Source of the DNA: Verrucomicrobiales bacterium
GTDB taxonomy: Bacteria; Verrucomicrobiota; Verrucomicrobiia; Limisphaerales; UBA9464
Direction of reading: 5' to 3'
DNA length: 64,000 nt
Assembly (NCBI GenBank): GCA_027488845.1
Contig: JAIYBC010000016.1
Coordinates: forward strand, 1-64,000
The notes beneath the pieces were generated by a model. The model saw only the letters and a list, made by a program, of their open reading frames with translations. It was not told the DNA's origin and searched no databases. Both the position numbers and the translations under genes were made by a program. Numbering within the stretch: the stretch's first letter is position 1; each line of letters begins with the position of its first letter. Positions 13,643-17,939 of this stretch are shown piece after piece.

Positions 13643-13781
13643 ACTCGGGCAAGGGGAATCAGGCCGGGCTTCCAGGCGGGTTGCCTCCAACGTGGGCCGG
13701 CCGGCAATCACGGGGCTTCTCGGCCCCCGGAGTCTCCGGTGCAGGAAACCGGGGGCATCGAAACTGCTGGGTCATGACGGC

Positions 13782-14648
13782 ATGCCACTTCACGCGACTT
13801 GGACCAATCTCCTGCTGATGACGGCCACCCTCTCCATCGGGTGGGCGTTCGGGCGGCGTGGTGGGGCGCCGGCGAGGATCGCCGTCGTCCTCGGACTGGG
13901 GGTCCTTGTCCTTGGTGTGATTGCGAACCTTCGGCCCGACCTCTGGAGCCGATGGATCCCCTGGAGGGATCTCCTGTTCGTCTCGAACCTGTTTCCGTTC
14001 GCATTCGCCCTGATCCTGCCTTCCGCCGTTTTCCGCCAGCCGGACCGGTCCGGTAGGCTGCGTCTGGGCATCCTGTCGATCTTCCTCACCTTGGCCTCCG
14101 TGCGCCCGTCGTTCGAGTTCCTCGAGCCGGCGGCGCGTGCCCGGATCACCTGGGTCGACCGCGATGGGATCTGCCGTCAATCCAGCCGGGAAACCTGTTC
14201 CGCCGCGGCCCTTGCCACCGTCCTTCTTCGGCACGGGATCGAGTCGAACGAGAAGCGGATCGCTGAACTGGCTTGGACCCGGCGCGACCGTGGCACTTCC
14301 GTCTTGGGACTCTACCGCGCCGCCGTCTTCCTGACCGATGGCAGGCCGGAACTGCGCCCACGGATCCGCCGGATCACCGCCGAGGAACTGGTTGCGTCGG
14401 GACGGCCGGCTGTCGTCACGGTGGGGCTGCCCAGACTGGGGAGTTCGCCGGCGGCGCTCGAATTCGGGAAGGCCTACGAATGGGAACCCGGTGTCCTCCA
14501 CGACGTCGCCTTCCTCGGCAGATCCCCGACGCGGGGTCTGGTCCGCATCGGCGATCCCGACTTCGGCCTCGAGGAATGGCCCGAGGAGCACCTGCGCTAC
14601 CTCCATCGCGGAACGGCCTTGGTCCTGGAAACGGTCGCCGGGCGTTGA
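13782..14648 (+). CDS. membrane-anchored C39-like cysteine peptidase
   Basis: The 288-residue protein is read from the ATG at 13782; an in-frame frame extension upstream has no support. Four predicted membrane segments occupy the first 110 residues (about 8-24, 31-50, 63-84, 94-108). The remainder is a papain-like domain: Q133 and C139 in RQSSRETCSAAALA, H240 in VLHDVAFLG and D258 in IGDPDFG, spaced as in peptidase family C39. Unlike bacteriocin exporters it has no ABC transporter domains and no adjacent bacteriocin gene. The topology places the peptidase either in the cytoplasm or the periplasm; the DRDGICRQ start just after the last helix does not settle it. Substrate unknown. Confidence 0.72.
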   Translation: MPLHATWTNLLLMTATLSIGWAFGRRGGAPARIAVVLGLGVLVLGVIANLRPDLWSRWIPWRDLLFVSNLFPFAFALILPSAVFRQPDRSGRLRLGILSIFLTLASVRPSFEFLEPAARARITWVDRDGICRQSSRETCSAAALATVLLRHGIESNEKRIAELAWTRRDRGTSVLGLYRAAVFLTDGRPELRPRIRRITAEELVASGRPAVVTVGLPRLGSSPAALEFGKAYEWEPGVLHDVAFLGRSPTRGLVRIGDPDFGLEEWPEEHLRYLHRGTALVLETVAGR

Positions 14649-14733: not shown

Positions 14734-15195
14734 ATGAAACGCAACCTGATGCTCCTGTCCCTCCTGGGATTCCTCGCCACCACCACCGCCTCCATCGCCG
14801 CGGAGAAGCGGCTGCTGAACCTCGACAAGGAGGGTGTCGCCATCCAGGGCTACGACCCGGTGGCGTTCTTCACCGTGAAGTCCCCCGTGAAGGGGAAGCC
14901 CGAGTTCGCGAGCGAACACGAGGGCGCCCGCTACTTCTTCCATTCGGCAAAGAGCAAACAGCTCTTCGACGCCGAGCCGAAGAGGTATGCGCCGCAATTC
15001 GGCGGCTATTGCGCCTATGGCGTGAGCCGGAACGCGCTCGCCCCGATCCAGGTCGAGGCGTGGCAGATCGTGGACGGACGGCTGCTGATGCAGAAGAACC
15101 CCGGGATCCGGGACGACTTCAACGAGGACGCCAAGGGCAACCTCGTGAAGGCCGATTCGAACTGGCCGAAGTTGCTCGGGAAGAAGGGCAAGTGA
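14734..15195 (+). CDS. secreted YHS-domain protein
   Basis: This 153-residue protein has a signal peptide (about 1-22, ending ASIA-A) and a YHS-type domain: VAIQGYDPVAFFT, then YFFHSAKSKQLFDAEPKRY and PQFGGYCAYGVS (about 35-100). YHS-domain proteins of this exported class are widespread and are thought to bind metal or haem-like ligands through the conserved Tyr/His/Cys, but their role is not established. The stop codon is 12 bases before the DoxX-like gene, so it appears to be the first gene of the redox operon that follows. Confidence 0.85.
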   Translation: MKRNLMLLSLLGFLATTTASIAAEKRLLNLDKEGVAIQGYDPVAFFTVKSPVKGKPEFASEHEGARYFFHSAKSKQLFDAEPKRYAPQFGGYCAYGVSRNALAPIQVEAWQIVDGRLLMQKNPGIRDDFNEDAKGNLVKADSNWPKLLGKKGK

Positions 15196-15207
15196 CCCGC
15201 ACCCGGA

Positions 15208-15711
15208 ATGAACCCGAATCGCAATCCAGTCACCGGCTCCCCATCGCGGGGATTCCGCCCGGAAGTCCGTCCCGGCGAGGGCCACTTCATCGACGAAACC
15301 GCCGAGAACCTCAGCCAAGGTGAGCGCCGGGTCAGCCTGGGAGCGCGGATCCTCACCGCTTCCATCCTGCTGGAGACGCTCTGGTTCAAGTTCACCGGCC
15401 ACCCCGAGTCGATGTGGATCTTCCGCCAGATGAACATGGAATCCTGGGGACGCTACGGGCAGGGCATCTGGGAGCTGACCGCGTCGGTGCTCCTGTTCGT
15501 CCCGCGGTTCCGGTGGGTCGGAGCCCTGCTGGCCCTGGGTGCCATGGGGTCGGCGATCGCGAGCCACCTCACCGTCCTCGGCATCGCCATCCAGGGGGAT
15601 CACGGACTCTTGTTCGGGATGGCCTGCACCGCCTTCCTCGGTGCGCTGGCGACCCTTTGGATCCACCAGCAGTCCATCCCCAACATCACCCGATTGGACG
15701 ACGCGCCATGA
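15208..15711 (+). CDS. DoxX-like integral membrane protein
   Basis: The 167-residue protein has a hydrophilic N-terminus of about 40 residues, then four membrane helices: one around ILTASILLETLWFKFTGH, two in the central segment and one near FGMACTAFLGALATLW. The order, short loops and the LLET-x-WFKFTG pattern fit the DoxX/SURF4-like family, small quinone-interacting or structural membrane proteins that accompany redox genes. Its last codon overlaps the next start by the four bases ATGA, so translation of the pair is probably coupled. Confidence 0.8.
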   Translation: MNPNRNPVTGSPSRGFRPEVRPGEGHFIDETAENLSQGERRVSLGARILTASILLETLWFKFTGHPESMWIFRQMNMESWGRYGQGIWELTASVLLFVPRFRWVGALLALGAMGSAIASHLTVLGIAIQGDHGLLFGMACTAFLGALATLWIHQQSIPNITRLDDAP

Positions 15712-16124
15712 CGTCGTCCACGGAGGTGGCCGCGGGCATCCTGGTGGATGCGGCGGGGTTTTATCTCGCACTGGGAATCGCGGTCGCGGTCGGGATCCAT
15801 TGGCAGGGTCTTGCGCGCATCGATCCCGGGACCCGGGGCGCGGGGATCGGATTCCGGATCCTGATCACCCCGGGTCTGGTGGCGCTCTGGCCATGGCTGC
15901 TGGTGGTGTGGAACCGGGCCGTCCGCGGCTCCGGATTCCGAGGCGGCTCCGCAGTCGCGCCGAGCGCGGGGTCCCTTCGCACCGCCCACGTTTGGGCCTG
16001 GGGGATCCTCGGCATCCTCGTCCCGACGACCCTGGCGATGCTTCTTGTCTCCCGTCCCCCGATGTCGCCGCCCACGACCCTTCCCGTCCCTCCACCGGCC
16101 TTGCCTGAAACCCCATCCGCCTGA
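15708..16124 (+). CDS. small membrane protein of the redox operon
   Basis: A 138-residue product starts at the ATG that overlaps the DoxX-like stop codon. Three hydrophobic segments are visible (about 9-29, 46-66 and 93-113), with a Pro-rich C-terminal tail. I do not recognise a family. Position between the DoxX-like gene and the ferric-reductase/Rieske gene, with overlap on one side and one base on the other, argues for a subunit or assembly factor of the same complex; that role is inference. Confidence 0.72.
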   Translation: MTSSTEVAAGILVDAAGFYLALGIAVAVGIHWQGLARIDPGTRGAGIGFRILITPGLVALWPWLLVVWNRAVRGSGFRGGSAVAPSAGSLRTAHVWAWGILGILVPTTLAMLLVSRPPMSPPTTLPVPPPALPETPSA

Positions 16125-16125
16125 C

Positions 16126-17199
16126 ATGTCGTCCCACTATCGCGTCGTCGACTGGAACCCGGAGAAGCGCCGCTACGACTTCGGCCTCGGCATCCTGGTG
16201 GCGGTCACGCTTGTCGCCTTCGGGGTGGTGACCGCCTGGAAGTCGCCGGAGGTCACCGTTGAGACTTTGCTGATCCGCGGAACCGCCCTGGTCGCCTTCC
16301 TGCTGCTGCACCTGGTCCTCGCGATCGGCCCGTTGGCGCGGTTGGACCGACGCTTCCTGCCCCTGTTGTACAACCGCCGGCACCTCGGCGTGACCCTCTT
16401 CGGGATCGGCCTGGTCCACGGCGGATTGTCTCTGTTCCAGTTCCACGCGCTCGGGGACGTGAATCCCTTCGTGAGCGTGCTGACGTCCTACTCGCAGGAT
16501 GCACGGCTGTTGTCCGATGGGCGTCTGGTCGCAGGGCATTTCCCCTTCGAACCGTTCGGCGTCGCAGGATTGGCCGTGCTCTTCCTGTTGGCCGCCACCA
16601 GCCACGACTTCTGGCTCAAGCTGCTCGGACCGTCCCTTTGGAAGTCGCTGCACCTCGGCGCCTACCTCGCCTACCTGCTGTTGTTCATCCATGTGGCCGC
16701 CGGGGTGGTTCAGGCCGAGCGCAGCGTGATCCCGCCTACGCTCCTGTCTGCCGGTTTCCTGCTGCTGCTGGGACTCCACGTAGCCGCGGCGCGAAAGGGT
16801 TTCGTCCGGAGGCCCGCGGTGGGAGCAGCGGTTGCCGAAGGCTTCGTGGACGTGGGTGAGGTCGAGGCCTTTCAGGAAGCTCGGGGCCGGGTTGTGACTG
16901 TCGGAGAAGGGCGGATCGCCGTGTTCCGGCACCGCAACCGGATCTTCGCCACCTCCAACGTCTGCCGGCATCAGGGTGGGCCGCTGGGAGAGGGACGGAT
17001 CCTCGACGGCTGCATCACGTGTCCTTGGCACGGATGGAACTACCGTCCCGAGGACGGCTGCAGTCCTCCGCCCTTCGAGGAGACGTTGGAGACCCACGCG
17101 ACCCGGAACGTCGGTGGACGGCTTTGGGTCCGAGCGGAGGTGAATCCGTTGCGGACCGTTTGTCCGGGAAGCGAATCCACGAAGGGGAGGGGGGAATGA
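16126..17199 (+). CDS. ferric-reductase-like membrane domain fused to a Rieske [2Fe-2S] domain
   Basis: This 357-residue protein has about six membrane helices (about 20-38, 50-68, 85-105, 143-160, 176-195, 203-221). Conserved histidines (H86, H98, H176, H189) sit in the helix pattern of the ferric-reductase/YedZ (MsrQ) family, which binds b-type haem. A C-terminal Rieske domain follows (about 235-335) with C280/H282 and C299/H302, the CxH...CxxH ligand set. The fusion suggests electron transfer between a membrane haem and a soluble iron-sulfur centre in one chain. It starts one base after the preceding gene and overlaps the next by ATGA. The electron donor and acceptor are unknown. Confidence 0.88.
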   Translation: MSSHYRVVDWNPEKRRYDFGLGILVAVTLVAFGVVTAWKSPEVTVETLLIRGTALVAFLLLHLVLAIGPLARLDRRFLPLLYNRRHLGVTLFGIGLVHGGLSLFQFHALGDVNPFVSVLTSYSQDARLLSDGRLVAGHFPFEPFGVAGLAVLFLLAATSHDFWLKLLGPSLWKSLHLGAYLAYLLLFIHVAAGVVQAERSVIPPTLLSAGFLLLLGLHVAAARKGFVRRPAVGAAVAEGFVDVGEVEAFQEARGRVVTVGEGRIAVFRHRNRIFATSNVCRHQGGPLGEGRILDGCITCPWHGWNYRPEDGCSPPPFEETLETHATRNVGGRLWVRAEVNPLRTVCPGSESTKGRGE

Positions 17200-17939
17200 A
17201 CGACGAGTTCTATGTCGGATACGCCGAGGAGGCTCCGCTGGGCCTGAGTCGGTTTCGGGGCCGGGTCGCGGCTTTCCTCTACGGCTTCGGTGTGGTGGCG
17301 GCTTCGCTCCTGGCGATCGGCCTTTCACCGGCCGAGCCCGGCACATTCGAGTTCGGGGTCCGCAAGGCCTTCGAGGGCCGCATCCTGGAAACCCCGCTGC
17401 CGTTGCTTCGGACCGTTTCGGATGACGGCGTGGTGCGGCACCATCTCCTGGTGGGTGCCGGGAAGCATGGGTTGCCGGCTTTCGCGCGGGGACATCATGG
17501 CGAGTGGGTGCGGTTCGAGGGCTCACGCATCCAGGCCGGTCGGTTGGCCATGATCGAGATGAGCTCACCGGAATCCTTCCGGGTGCTCGGTGGGGTACCG
17601 GAGACCCGGCCGGAGGTCCGGGATGTCGATCTGGGCGAGGTCCTGCTCGAAGGGGAGCTCGTCGACACGAAGTGCTGGGCCGGCGTCATGCGACCGGCAA
17701 CCGGCAAAGTCCACCGCTCCTGCGCCGTCGTCTGCCTCCGGGGTGGAGTCCCGCCGGGTCTGTTGGTCCGGGACGCGAAAGGAGACGGGTCGGTCGTGCT
17801 GCTGACCGGCCGTGAAGGGCGTCCGCTGGACCTCGACCCGCGGCTCGCGGCCCGGAGGTTGGGTGTCGCTGGAAGACTCTTCGTCCTCGGGGAAGTGCCG
17901 AGGATGGAGGTTTCTCGGATCTCCCTGGCGGGACCCTGA
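17196..17939 (+). CDS. membrane-anchored protein with Cys/His motif, redox operon
   Basis: The 247-residue product starts at an ATG that overlaps the stop of the Rieske-fusion gene. A single membrane helix lies at about 25-43. The C-terminal half carries a striking motif, C160-x12-H173-x2-C176-x3-C180 (DTKCWAG ... KVHRSCAVVC), followed by RGGVPPGLLV. This looks like a metal- or cluster-binding site and I recall similar motifs in proteins of unknown function from related operons, but I cannot name a family. Tight coupling to the Rieske fusion suggests a dedicated electron-transfer or maturation partner. It is the last gene of the operon; the next gene, infC, has its own promoter candidate. Confidence 0.75.
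   Translation: MNDEFYVGYAEEAPLGLSRFRGRVAAFLYGFGVVAASLLAIGLSPAEPGTFEFGVRKAFEGRILETPLPLLRTVSDDGVVRHHLLVGAGKHGLPAFARGHHGEWVRFEGSRIQAGRLAMIEMSSPESFRVLGGVPETRPEVRDVDLGEVLLEGELVDTKCWAGVMRPATGKVHRSCAVVCLRGGVPPGLLVRDAKGDGSVVLLTGREGRPLDLDPRLAARRLGVAGRLFVLGEVPRMEVSRISLAGP

Follow-up and report, generated by a model that had tools for sequence, protein, structure and literature searches.

Do five neighbouring genes of a verrucomicrobial bacterium code for one dedicated electron-transfer complex, and which way might electrons run through it? The genes lie in a stretch of 64,000 nucleotides from a Verrucomicrobiales bacterium (assembly GCA_027488845.1, contig JAIYBC010000016.1, positions 1 to 64,000 of the forward strand), which as a whole is called the window here, and they code, in order, for a YHS protein, a DoxX-like membrane protein, a small membrane protein, a fusion protein in which a ferric reductase domain (FRD) is joined to a Rieske domain, and a protein with a conserved cysteine motif (Cys protein). 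An earlier note on this DNA had suggested, from their order, that all five form a dedicated electron-transfer complex. The coordinates were re-derived and showed that its account of five co-directional genes is exact to the base, the junctions being, in gene order, a 12-base gap, an ATGA overlap, a 1-base gap and a second ATGA overlap, and the residues which it had singled out in the fusion protein (H86, H98, H176, H189, C280, H282, C299 and H302) all carry those numbers. Its YedZ/MsrQ-like core joined to a Rieske cluster in one chain was borne out as well, since the same protein matches Pfam Ferric_reduct (PF01794, 36.5 bits against a cut-off of 28), which places it in the FRD superfamily, and Pfam Rieske (58.3 bits against 20.3).

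Three genes that stay together

The comparison was based on 46 loci, namely the window, 40 loci from a scan of a species-genome collection and five (L070-L074) from a search of the phylum, which were read with longer flanks. The scan gave 41 loci, 40 of them related over the whole or most of their length; the other one (L069, 27% identity, Rieske part only) was left out of all counts, and L005, L011, L012 and L025 were dropped because they duplicate the window, L029 and L030. The results showed that the Cys gene lies downstream of the fusion gene in all 46 loci and that the small membrane gene lies upstream of it in 43, and in the three remaining loci the contig end cuts the locus, the fusion gene starting at position 3, 7 or 192 of its stretch. 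A YHS gene is adjacent to these three genes, hereafter the triad, in 13 of the 46 loci (farther off in L061 and L071), and a DoxX gene in five (farther off within the fetched flanks in L036, L038, L046, L059, L061 and L073), both adjacency counts being lower bounds because five of the loci have less than 1 kb of upstream sequence. The five-gene set as such is not the conserved unit; the core is three genes, and YHS and DoxX are optional extras. In L061, a YHS and a DoxX-like gene stand side by side 3.5 kb downstream of the triad (L061:11584-12433), and the pair may constitute a separate two-gene unit.

The junction between the fusion gene and the Cys gene is fused in five loci, unmeasurable in one, and within 10 bases in 35 of the 40 others, 16 of which have the same -4 overlap as the window, so that the overlap which the earlier note had stressed is a conserved feature. 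These gaps rest on an automatic guess of the start codon, and the values of -103 in L060 and -98 in L074 probably reflect wrong starts. The five fused cases (L036, L045, L048, L051 and L059, all on contigs of metagenome-assembled genomes, MAGs) are single in-frame open reading frames (ORFs) covering both proteins, with the fused state requiring four parsimony changes on a quick tree, and they are good evidence for one complex. The dedicated complex of the earlier note is therefore supported for the small membrane, fusion and Cys proteins, whose genes occur together, with conserved overlaps and natural fusions, and not for the YHS and DoxX proteins; likewise, a fusion gene without its neighbours in most genomes, the outcome which that note saw as fatal, is what was found for YHS and DoxX and is not what was found for the other two.

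The records of the scan are titled as Verrucomicrobiota, Planctomycetota, Acidobacteriota, Gemmatimonadota, Bacteroidota, one 'Proteobacteria' MAG and two 'bacterium'. The fusion of the 'Proteobacteria' MAG joins the verrucomicrobial group on a quick tree, and because of this grouping its title may be wrong; quick trees of this kind have weak deep forks. The title of L030 (Akkermansia muciniphila) is probably wrong too, its fusion gene being 91% identical to that of the window and grouping with it. Among 30 genomes consisting of the window's own and relatives, the fusion is carried by the window's genome and two of the same genus, in one case in pieces on two contigs, and the other matches in this set cover the Rieske part alone. 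Four stretches of viral contigs matched a pattern, and no relative was found among them by tblastn.

The membrane core and its Rieske domain

Twelve residues of the fusion protein are identical in all 46 sequences, namely R84, R85, H86, H98, H107, H160, H176, H189 and the four Rieske ligands, and H62 and H218 are kept in 42 and 44 of them, respectively. In an alignment with one verrucomicrobial MsrQ (L106), which scores above its NCBIfam cut-off, R84, H98, H176 and H189 fall on the Arg and three His of MsrQ, and the positions of H86, H62, H107, H160 and H218 hold no His, that of H86 being a Leu. An Arg at the first canonical His is given as a mark of YedZ and STEAP by Zhang et al. 2013 (PMC3591440). 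The reading of H86 as a haem ligand, made in the earlier note, thus gains from its invariance and loses from its place two residues past the canonical first-His position, which is R84 here. In terms of the His-x12/14-His pairs of NADPH oxidases (NOX), H176-x12-H189 fits, and the first pair is H86-x11-H98 with an Arg 14 residues before H98. Judged by these aligned residues, the core is MsrQ-like with extra histidines, and H86 and H176 may hold a second haem at a non-canonical position. The score against the MsrQ equivalog NF003831 was 31.4 bits over residues 144-222, about 100 bits short of the cut-off of 130.

An alignment of 75 rows (5 fused, 35 fusion-only and 35 Cys-only sequences) was made, leaving out L054, where the fusion gene is in two overlapping pieces, and L070-L074. 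All 40 fusion-bearing rows match Ferric_reduct at E≤0.01, and the Rieske families and Ferric_reduct are the only ones matched by more than two members; for the fusion protein itself, no Pfam match to a domain binding flavin adenine dinucleotide (FAD) or NADPH was found at E≤1. From this alignment, AlphaFold2 modelled the naturally fused protein of L036 with a mean predicted local distance difference test score (pLDDT) of 88.9 and a predicted template modelling score of 0.85. The comparison of this model with known structures by VIA-align gave a Z score of 16.0 for the ferredoxin BphA3 (root-mean-square deviation, rmsd, 1.9 over 105 residues), 12.2 for STEAP4 (rmsd 4.5, 205 residues), about 12 for STEAP2 and 12.2 for NOX5 (rmsd 3.5, 180 residues).

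The Rieske domain is of the ferredoxin type in both motif and fold, with C-x-H ... C-x2-H in 46 of 46 sequences and the Z score of 16 given above. Rieske proteins of bc1 and b6f complexes carry an extra disulfide cysteine in both cluster loops; the loops of the fusion, CRHQGG and CPWHGW, have no second Cys in either, and by this mark its domain is not of the bc1/b6f type. Because these cysteines are missing and the best matches are dioxygenase ferredoxins, the domain should be low-potential and cytosolic. On a tree with 34 other Rieske domains, those of the fusion form one group (Shimodaira-Hasegawa-like approximate likelihood ratio support 80, from few columns), which is compatible with one origin.

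Similar to MsrQ (YedZ), the haem subunit of the MsrPQ methionine sulfoxide reductase, the fusion has a six-helix FRD core with three haem His and an Arg, and it differs by its C-terminal Rieske domain, by the extra invariant H86, H107 and H160, and by its fixed partners, which are the small membrane and Cys proteins, a scan of six genes next to the five-gene module, three on each side, having found no molybdoenzyme. With NOX, STEAP and FRE proteins it shares the fold of the membrane core and the transmembrane haem path, and the difference is that the Rieske domain occupies the place in the chain where these have the FAD/NADPH domain. Rieske-type ferredoxins (those of dioxygenases, and NirD) share the fold and the ligand motif, and here the domain is joined to a membrane haem core. 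An FRD with a Rieske extension was drawn as a bacterial architecture, model M4, by Zhang et al. 2013, whose legend also lists flavin mononucleotide (FMN), so that M4 may be another architecture; the passages of that paper (PMC3591440) which were consulted describe no partners, operon or function for it. The triad complex was not found described in the open-access literature searched, including passages of PMC3591440, PMC5676040, PMC5449189 and PMC11334425, and only the first of these draws a Rieske-FRD protein; the single 'Rieske' in PMC5676040 is an author's name. The analysis suggested in general that the triad is a real, conserved membrane redox complex, best called a variant of FRD-type transmembrane electron transfer.

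A possible route across the membrane

The reading which we consider slightly better than an even bet, from sequence and fold models, is that the triad forms one membrane complex moving electrons across the cytoplasmic membrane, with the Rieske domain replacing the flavin port. The gene set, its conservation, the natural fusions and the fold models are direct results, and the electron route that follows is inferred from homology. The core would be a b-haem bundle of the MsrQ/NOX type, with the Rieske [2Fe-2S] cluster standing in for a cytosolic flavin domain or a separate flavin reductase. Electrons would (i) enter at the cytosolic Rieske cluster, (ii) pass to the haem or haems, whose ligands would be H98/H189 and H176 and perhaps H86 or R84, and (iii) exit on the periplasmic face through the three-Cys OB domain of the Cys protein, which would serve as acceptor, metal site or thiol relay. 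A part in assembly or as a scaffold would fall to the small membrane proteins, and the YHS and DoxX proteins, in the loci that have them, may work on the periplasmic side.

The proposed exit site consists of the motif K159-C160-x4-M165-x-P-x5-H173-x2-C176-A-x2-C180 in the second OB fold of the Cys protein, in which C160, H173 and C176 are kept in all 46 loci and M165 and C180 in 45. The window's Cys protein belongs to no Pfam, NCBIfam or PHROG family. An AlphaFold2 model of it alone, made from an alignment of 22 of the 46 Cys proteins, had a pLDDT of 83.6 and consists of a transmembrane (TM) helix and two OB folds; the motif loop was modelled at lower confidence (block means 61 for residues 161-170 and 76 for 171-180), as might be expected of a cofactor loop. 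In structure comparison this model matched OB folds best, with Z about 8, a result that is uninformative on function, and the matches to SSB, PriB and NlpE (Z 6-8) were set aside as likeness of fold only. No known metal or redox protein is among the OB-fold matches listed, which excludes nothing. By hhalign, the second OB fold (profile columns 151-245, including the C..C..C pattern) matched a two-sequence DUF5818-like profile at 82% probability. DUF5818 (PF19135) is a secreted three-Cys domain sharing this pattern, and the Cys protein differs from it in having the Met, a TM anchor and one more OB fold; the window's protein has no match to the family at E≤1 and one of 22 relatives matches at E 0.057, so that the likeness is a lead and not membership.

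Several other candidates for relatives of the Cys protein were rejected. DUF5818 relatives in the window's genome were sub-threshold matches only, and 14 of 14 control genomes matched too at E≤10; the Cys profile also matched a superoxide reductase at E 0.058, which was judged to be chance; and weak matches in same-genus and same-order genomes gave seven loci (L086-L092), of which L086 and L092 were inspected and hold no relative.

The same motif allows another role for the Cys protein, in which its OB domain is a metallochaperone or assembly factor for haem or copper and the fusion reduces the metal or haem during delivery. The set of three Cys, one His and one Met could bind copper, YHS is a metal-binding domain, DoxX turns up in papers on gold and copper operons, and the FRD relatives include the metal reductases STEAP and FRE (PMC3591440). 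Against these points, the motif, searched as a Cys profile, matches no named metal-binding family, and the neighbour clusters inspected, of which the smaller part was annotated, showed no gene recognisable as one for metal transport, although an ABC-type ATPase, recognised by eye, lies about 5 kb off on the other strand in some loci. We regard this role as unlikely.

The small membrane protein also has no Pfam, NCBIfam or PHROG family. It has a TM segment and conserved D39, P55-G56 and W61-P62, with D39, W61 and P62 present in 43 of 43 sequences. A second segment carries an LRxxH..W...P motif and, in L052 and other Bacteroidota loci, is encoded by a gene of its own; most Bacteroidota loci have two genes, smp1 (D...PG....WP motif) and smp2 (an LRxxH...P-like start and a longer tail), which are fused in L061. 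The smp2 pattern is loose, matching 40 of 43 loci with several strings starting in an unrelated reading (L045, L047, L048 and L049), and was used for the split and fused forms only.

Possible donors, neighbouring genes and what they would mean

Candidate donors are found beside the triad in the 13 Bacteroidota-titled loci, 12 of which have a full-length gene for a glutamate-synthase-like enzyme with a Rieske domain (Rieske-GltS), 11 a full-length gene for a thiamine diphosphate enzyme with a Rieske domain (Rieske-ThDP) and eight a Na+/H+ exchanger, these families having been named by Pfam in L052. Over all 46 loci, full-length matches put Rieske-ThDP in 12 and Rieske-GltS in 15. A sixteenth Rieske-GltS gene (L072:6126-7631) is in three overlapping pieces, from an assembly error or as a decayed gene, and the stretches of L052 and L067 begin inside the GltS gene, with its Rieske domain seen in part only. 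The Rieske-ThDP enzyme, found at L052:4437-6386 and in 11 further loci, is PoxB-like with the Rieske domain at its N-terminus. Among PDB entries it matches E. coli PoxB best (3eya, E 9.9e-63), which is titled 'pyruvate dehydrogenase [cytochrome]', and in the full-length PoxB entry 3ey9 its residues 113-633 align to residues 3-516 of 572. The C-terminal end of PoxB, which binds the membrane, lies beyond the match, and the Rieske domain is at the opposite end of the enzyme. The Rieske domains of the fusion, the ThDP enzyme and GltS form three separate groups (quick tree, few columns), and the pairing of a Rieske domain with a pyruvate oxidase was not found in the open-access literature searched. 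In Bacteroidota, the Rieske-tailed PoxB-like enzyme and the Rieske-tailed GltS-like FMN enzyme of the same cluster are the likely donors, and the simplest reading is that they would hand electrons to the membrane core from Rieske to Rieske; in the window's genome another protein would be the donor.

Two further gene sets near the triad bear on other roles for it. A Fer2-adenylate/guanylate cyclase lies between the Na+/H+ exchanger and Rieske-ThDP in L052 (3491-4405, by Pfam) and L067 (3492-4406), and a weaker match to this protein lies downstream of the triad in L035 and L037, which would fit a redox sensing or signalling unit reporting the redox state of the membrane and carrying no metabolic flux. 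Such matches occur in four of the 46 loci only, annotation having covered part of the neighbours, and we regard a signalling role as very improbable. In seven loci (two Gemmatimonadota, three Acidobacteriota and two of the window's phylum), the triad is followed on the same strand by members of one gene cluster, the two that were scanned (L051 and L070) being GNAT acyltransferases, with a PlsC-type acyltransferase confirmed in L051, L054, L059 and L070. The acyltransferases of L051 score below the cut-offs of OlsB and OlsA, the ornithine-lipid enzymes which they resemble, and such genes downstream of the triad (L051:8763-10442, L070:7798-9429) show a possible link to amino-acid lipids.

These genes, together with the Rieske domain which GltS has of its own and the ferredoxin-like fold of the fusion's domain, proteins of which kind normally feed oxygenases, would also suit an inward flow, in which quinol or a periplasmic donor reduces the core and the Rieske cluster feeds cytosolic enzymes such as Rieske-GltS or a lipid-modifying enzyme. 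The characterised FRD relatives considered here (MsrQ, NOX, STEAP and FRE) send electrons outward or toward the outer face, and the invariant C/M/H motif is on the predicted periplasmic side, the topology being taken from sequence and models; on balance an inward flow appears unlikely.

Several results weigh against the outward route set out above. The fusion is rare, being present in 6 of 387 genomes of the phylum at E≤1e-20 and, as a high-scoring gene, in 3 of 19 genomes of the same genus, the window's own counted in each case. The window's genome is without both Rieske-tailed enzymes, and for this reason such donors cannot be general; its best ThDP match (31% identity) and its GltB-type match are on contigs without any Rieske match. 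The loci with acyltransferases offer no simple donor story, and the second OB domain could be structural, with a disulfide and no metal. In addition, the window's genome has four Oxidored_molyb (MsrP-fold) proteins over the cut-off, one of them (C19:80403-80876) on the same contig as the triad, and such an unlinked molybdoenzyme might be the true acceptor in place of the Cys domain, and it has no MsrQ match at E≤1e-5. Together with the MsrQ-type haem residues, this would allow the core to act as MsrQ for a molybdoenzyme of the MsrP type encoded elsewhere, with the Cys and small membrane proteins as structural or assembly partners. Oxidored_molyb proteins are, however, common (found in 9 of 14 control genomes) and absent from the six neighbours scanned, the equivalog cut-off is missed by the wide distance given above, and the invariant C..M..H..C..C motif would be left unexplained, so that this assignment seems improbable to us.

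The coordinates of the module and of the Oxidored_molyb proteins are given in Table 1. The YHS protein is a member of NCBIfam NF041384 (YHS_seleno_dom, 135 bits against a cut-off of 70) and has an N-terminal secretion signal, read by eye. The flanks of the module are ordinary, with pdxJ, acpS and a weak C39 peptidase upstream and infC, a DHFR gene and a LysR gene downstream; the C39-peptidase-like protein directly upstream (window 13692-14648) scored 23.5 bits against a Pfam cut-off of 22. A sigma-70 and terminator scan gave no promoter-like site and a single terminator-like match, on the minus strand inside the YHS gene, and shuffled sequences gave more. Among the other loci, planctomycete L044 has a NorB/COX1-type protein upstream of the triad (L044:2237-4531). 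The ORFs returned by the all-against-all clustering of neighbours included many shadows, read from the wrong strand or in the wrong frame, and some clusters were annotated.

Table 1. Positions of the five genes and key motifs in the window, and of Oxidored_molyb proteins elsewhere in its genome (G000; contig:positions)
Feature	Position	Strand	Remarks
YHS protein	14734-15195	+	153 amino acids; Pfam YHS 34.8 bits, cut-off 30.3
DoxX-like membrane protein	15208-15711	+	167 amino acids; Pfam DoxX (PF07681) 23.6 bits, exactly the cut-off of 23.6
Small membrane protein (triad member 1)	15708-16124	+	138 amino acids
FRD/Rieske fusion (triad member 2)	16126-17199	+	357 amino acids; six predicted TM helices, then C-terminal Rieske ferredoxin-type domain
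Codon of H86	16381-16383	+	His invariant in 46/46 fusion homologues
Rieske ligand motif C280-x-H282 ... C299-x2-H302	16963-17031	+	46/46 homologues
Cys protein (triad member 3)	17196-17939	+	247 amino acids; N-terminal TM, two OB folds
Oxidored_molyb protein	C57:128416-128919
Oxidored_molyb protein	C31:49868-50368
Oxidored_molyb protein	C9:20296-20727
Oxidored_molyb protein	C19:80403-80876

To our knowledge, transmembrane electron transfer by FRD proteins starts from a flavin or from a separate flavin reductase. The triad family, which spans five phyla by title and one 'Proteobacteria' MAG and whose partner proteins have no family name in the libraries searched, would start it from a Rieske cluster instead. 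We put forward as a tentative possibility, held with less confidence than the route itself, a new class of modular transmembrane redox complex with a Rieske port, into which Rieske-tailed enzymes plug, and an exit through a new periplasmic redox or metal centre of three Cys, Met and His in an OB fold. If true, it would be a plug-in route by which electrons from the metabolism of pyruvate or amino acids reach the outer side of the membrane, and would give a new periplasmic redox site to look for.

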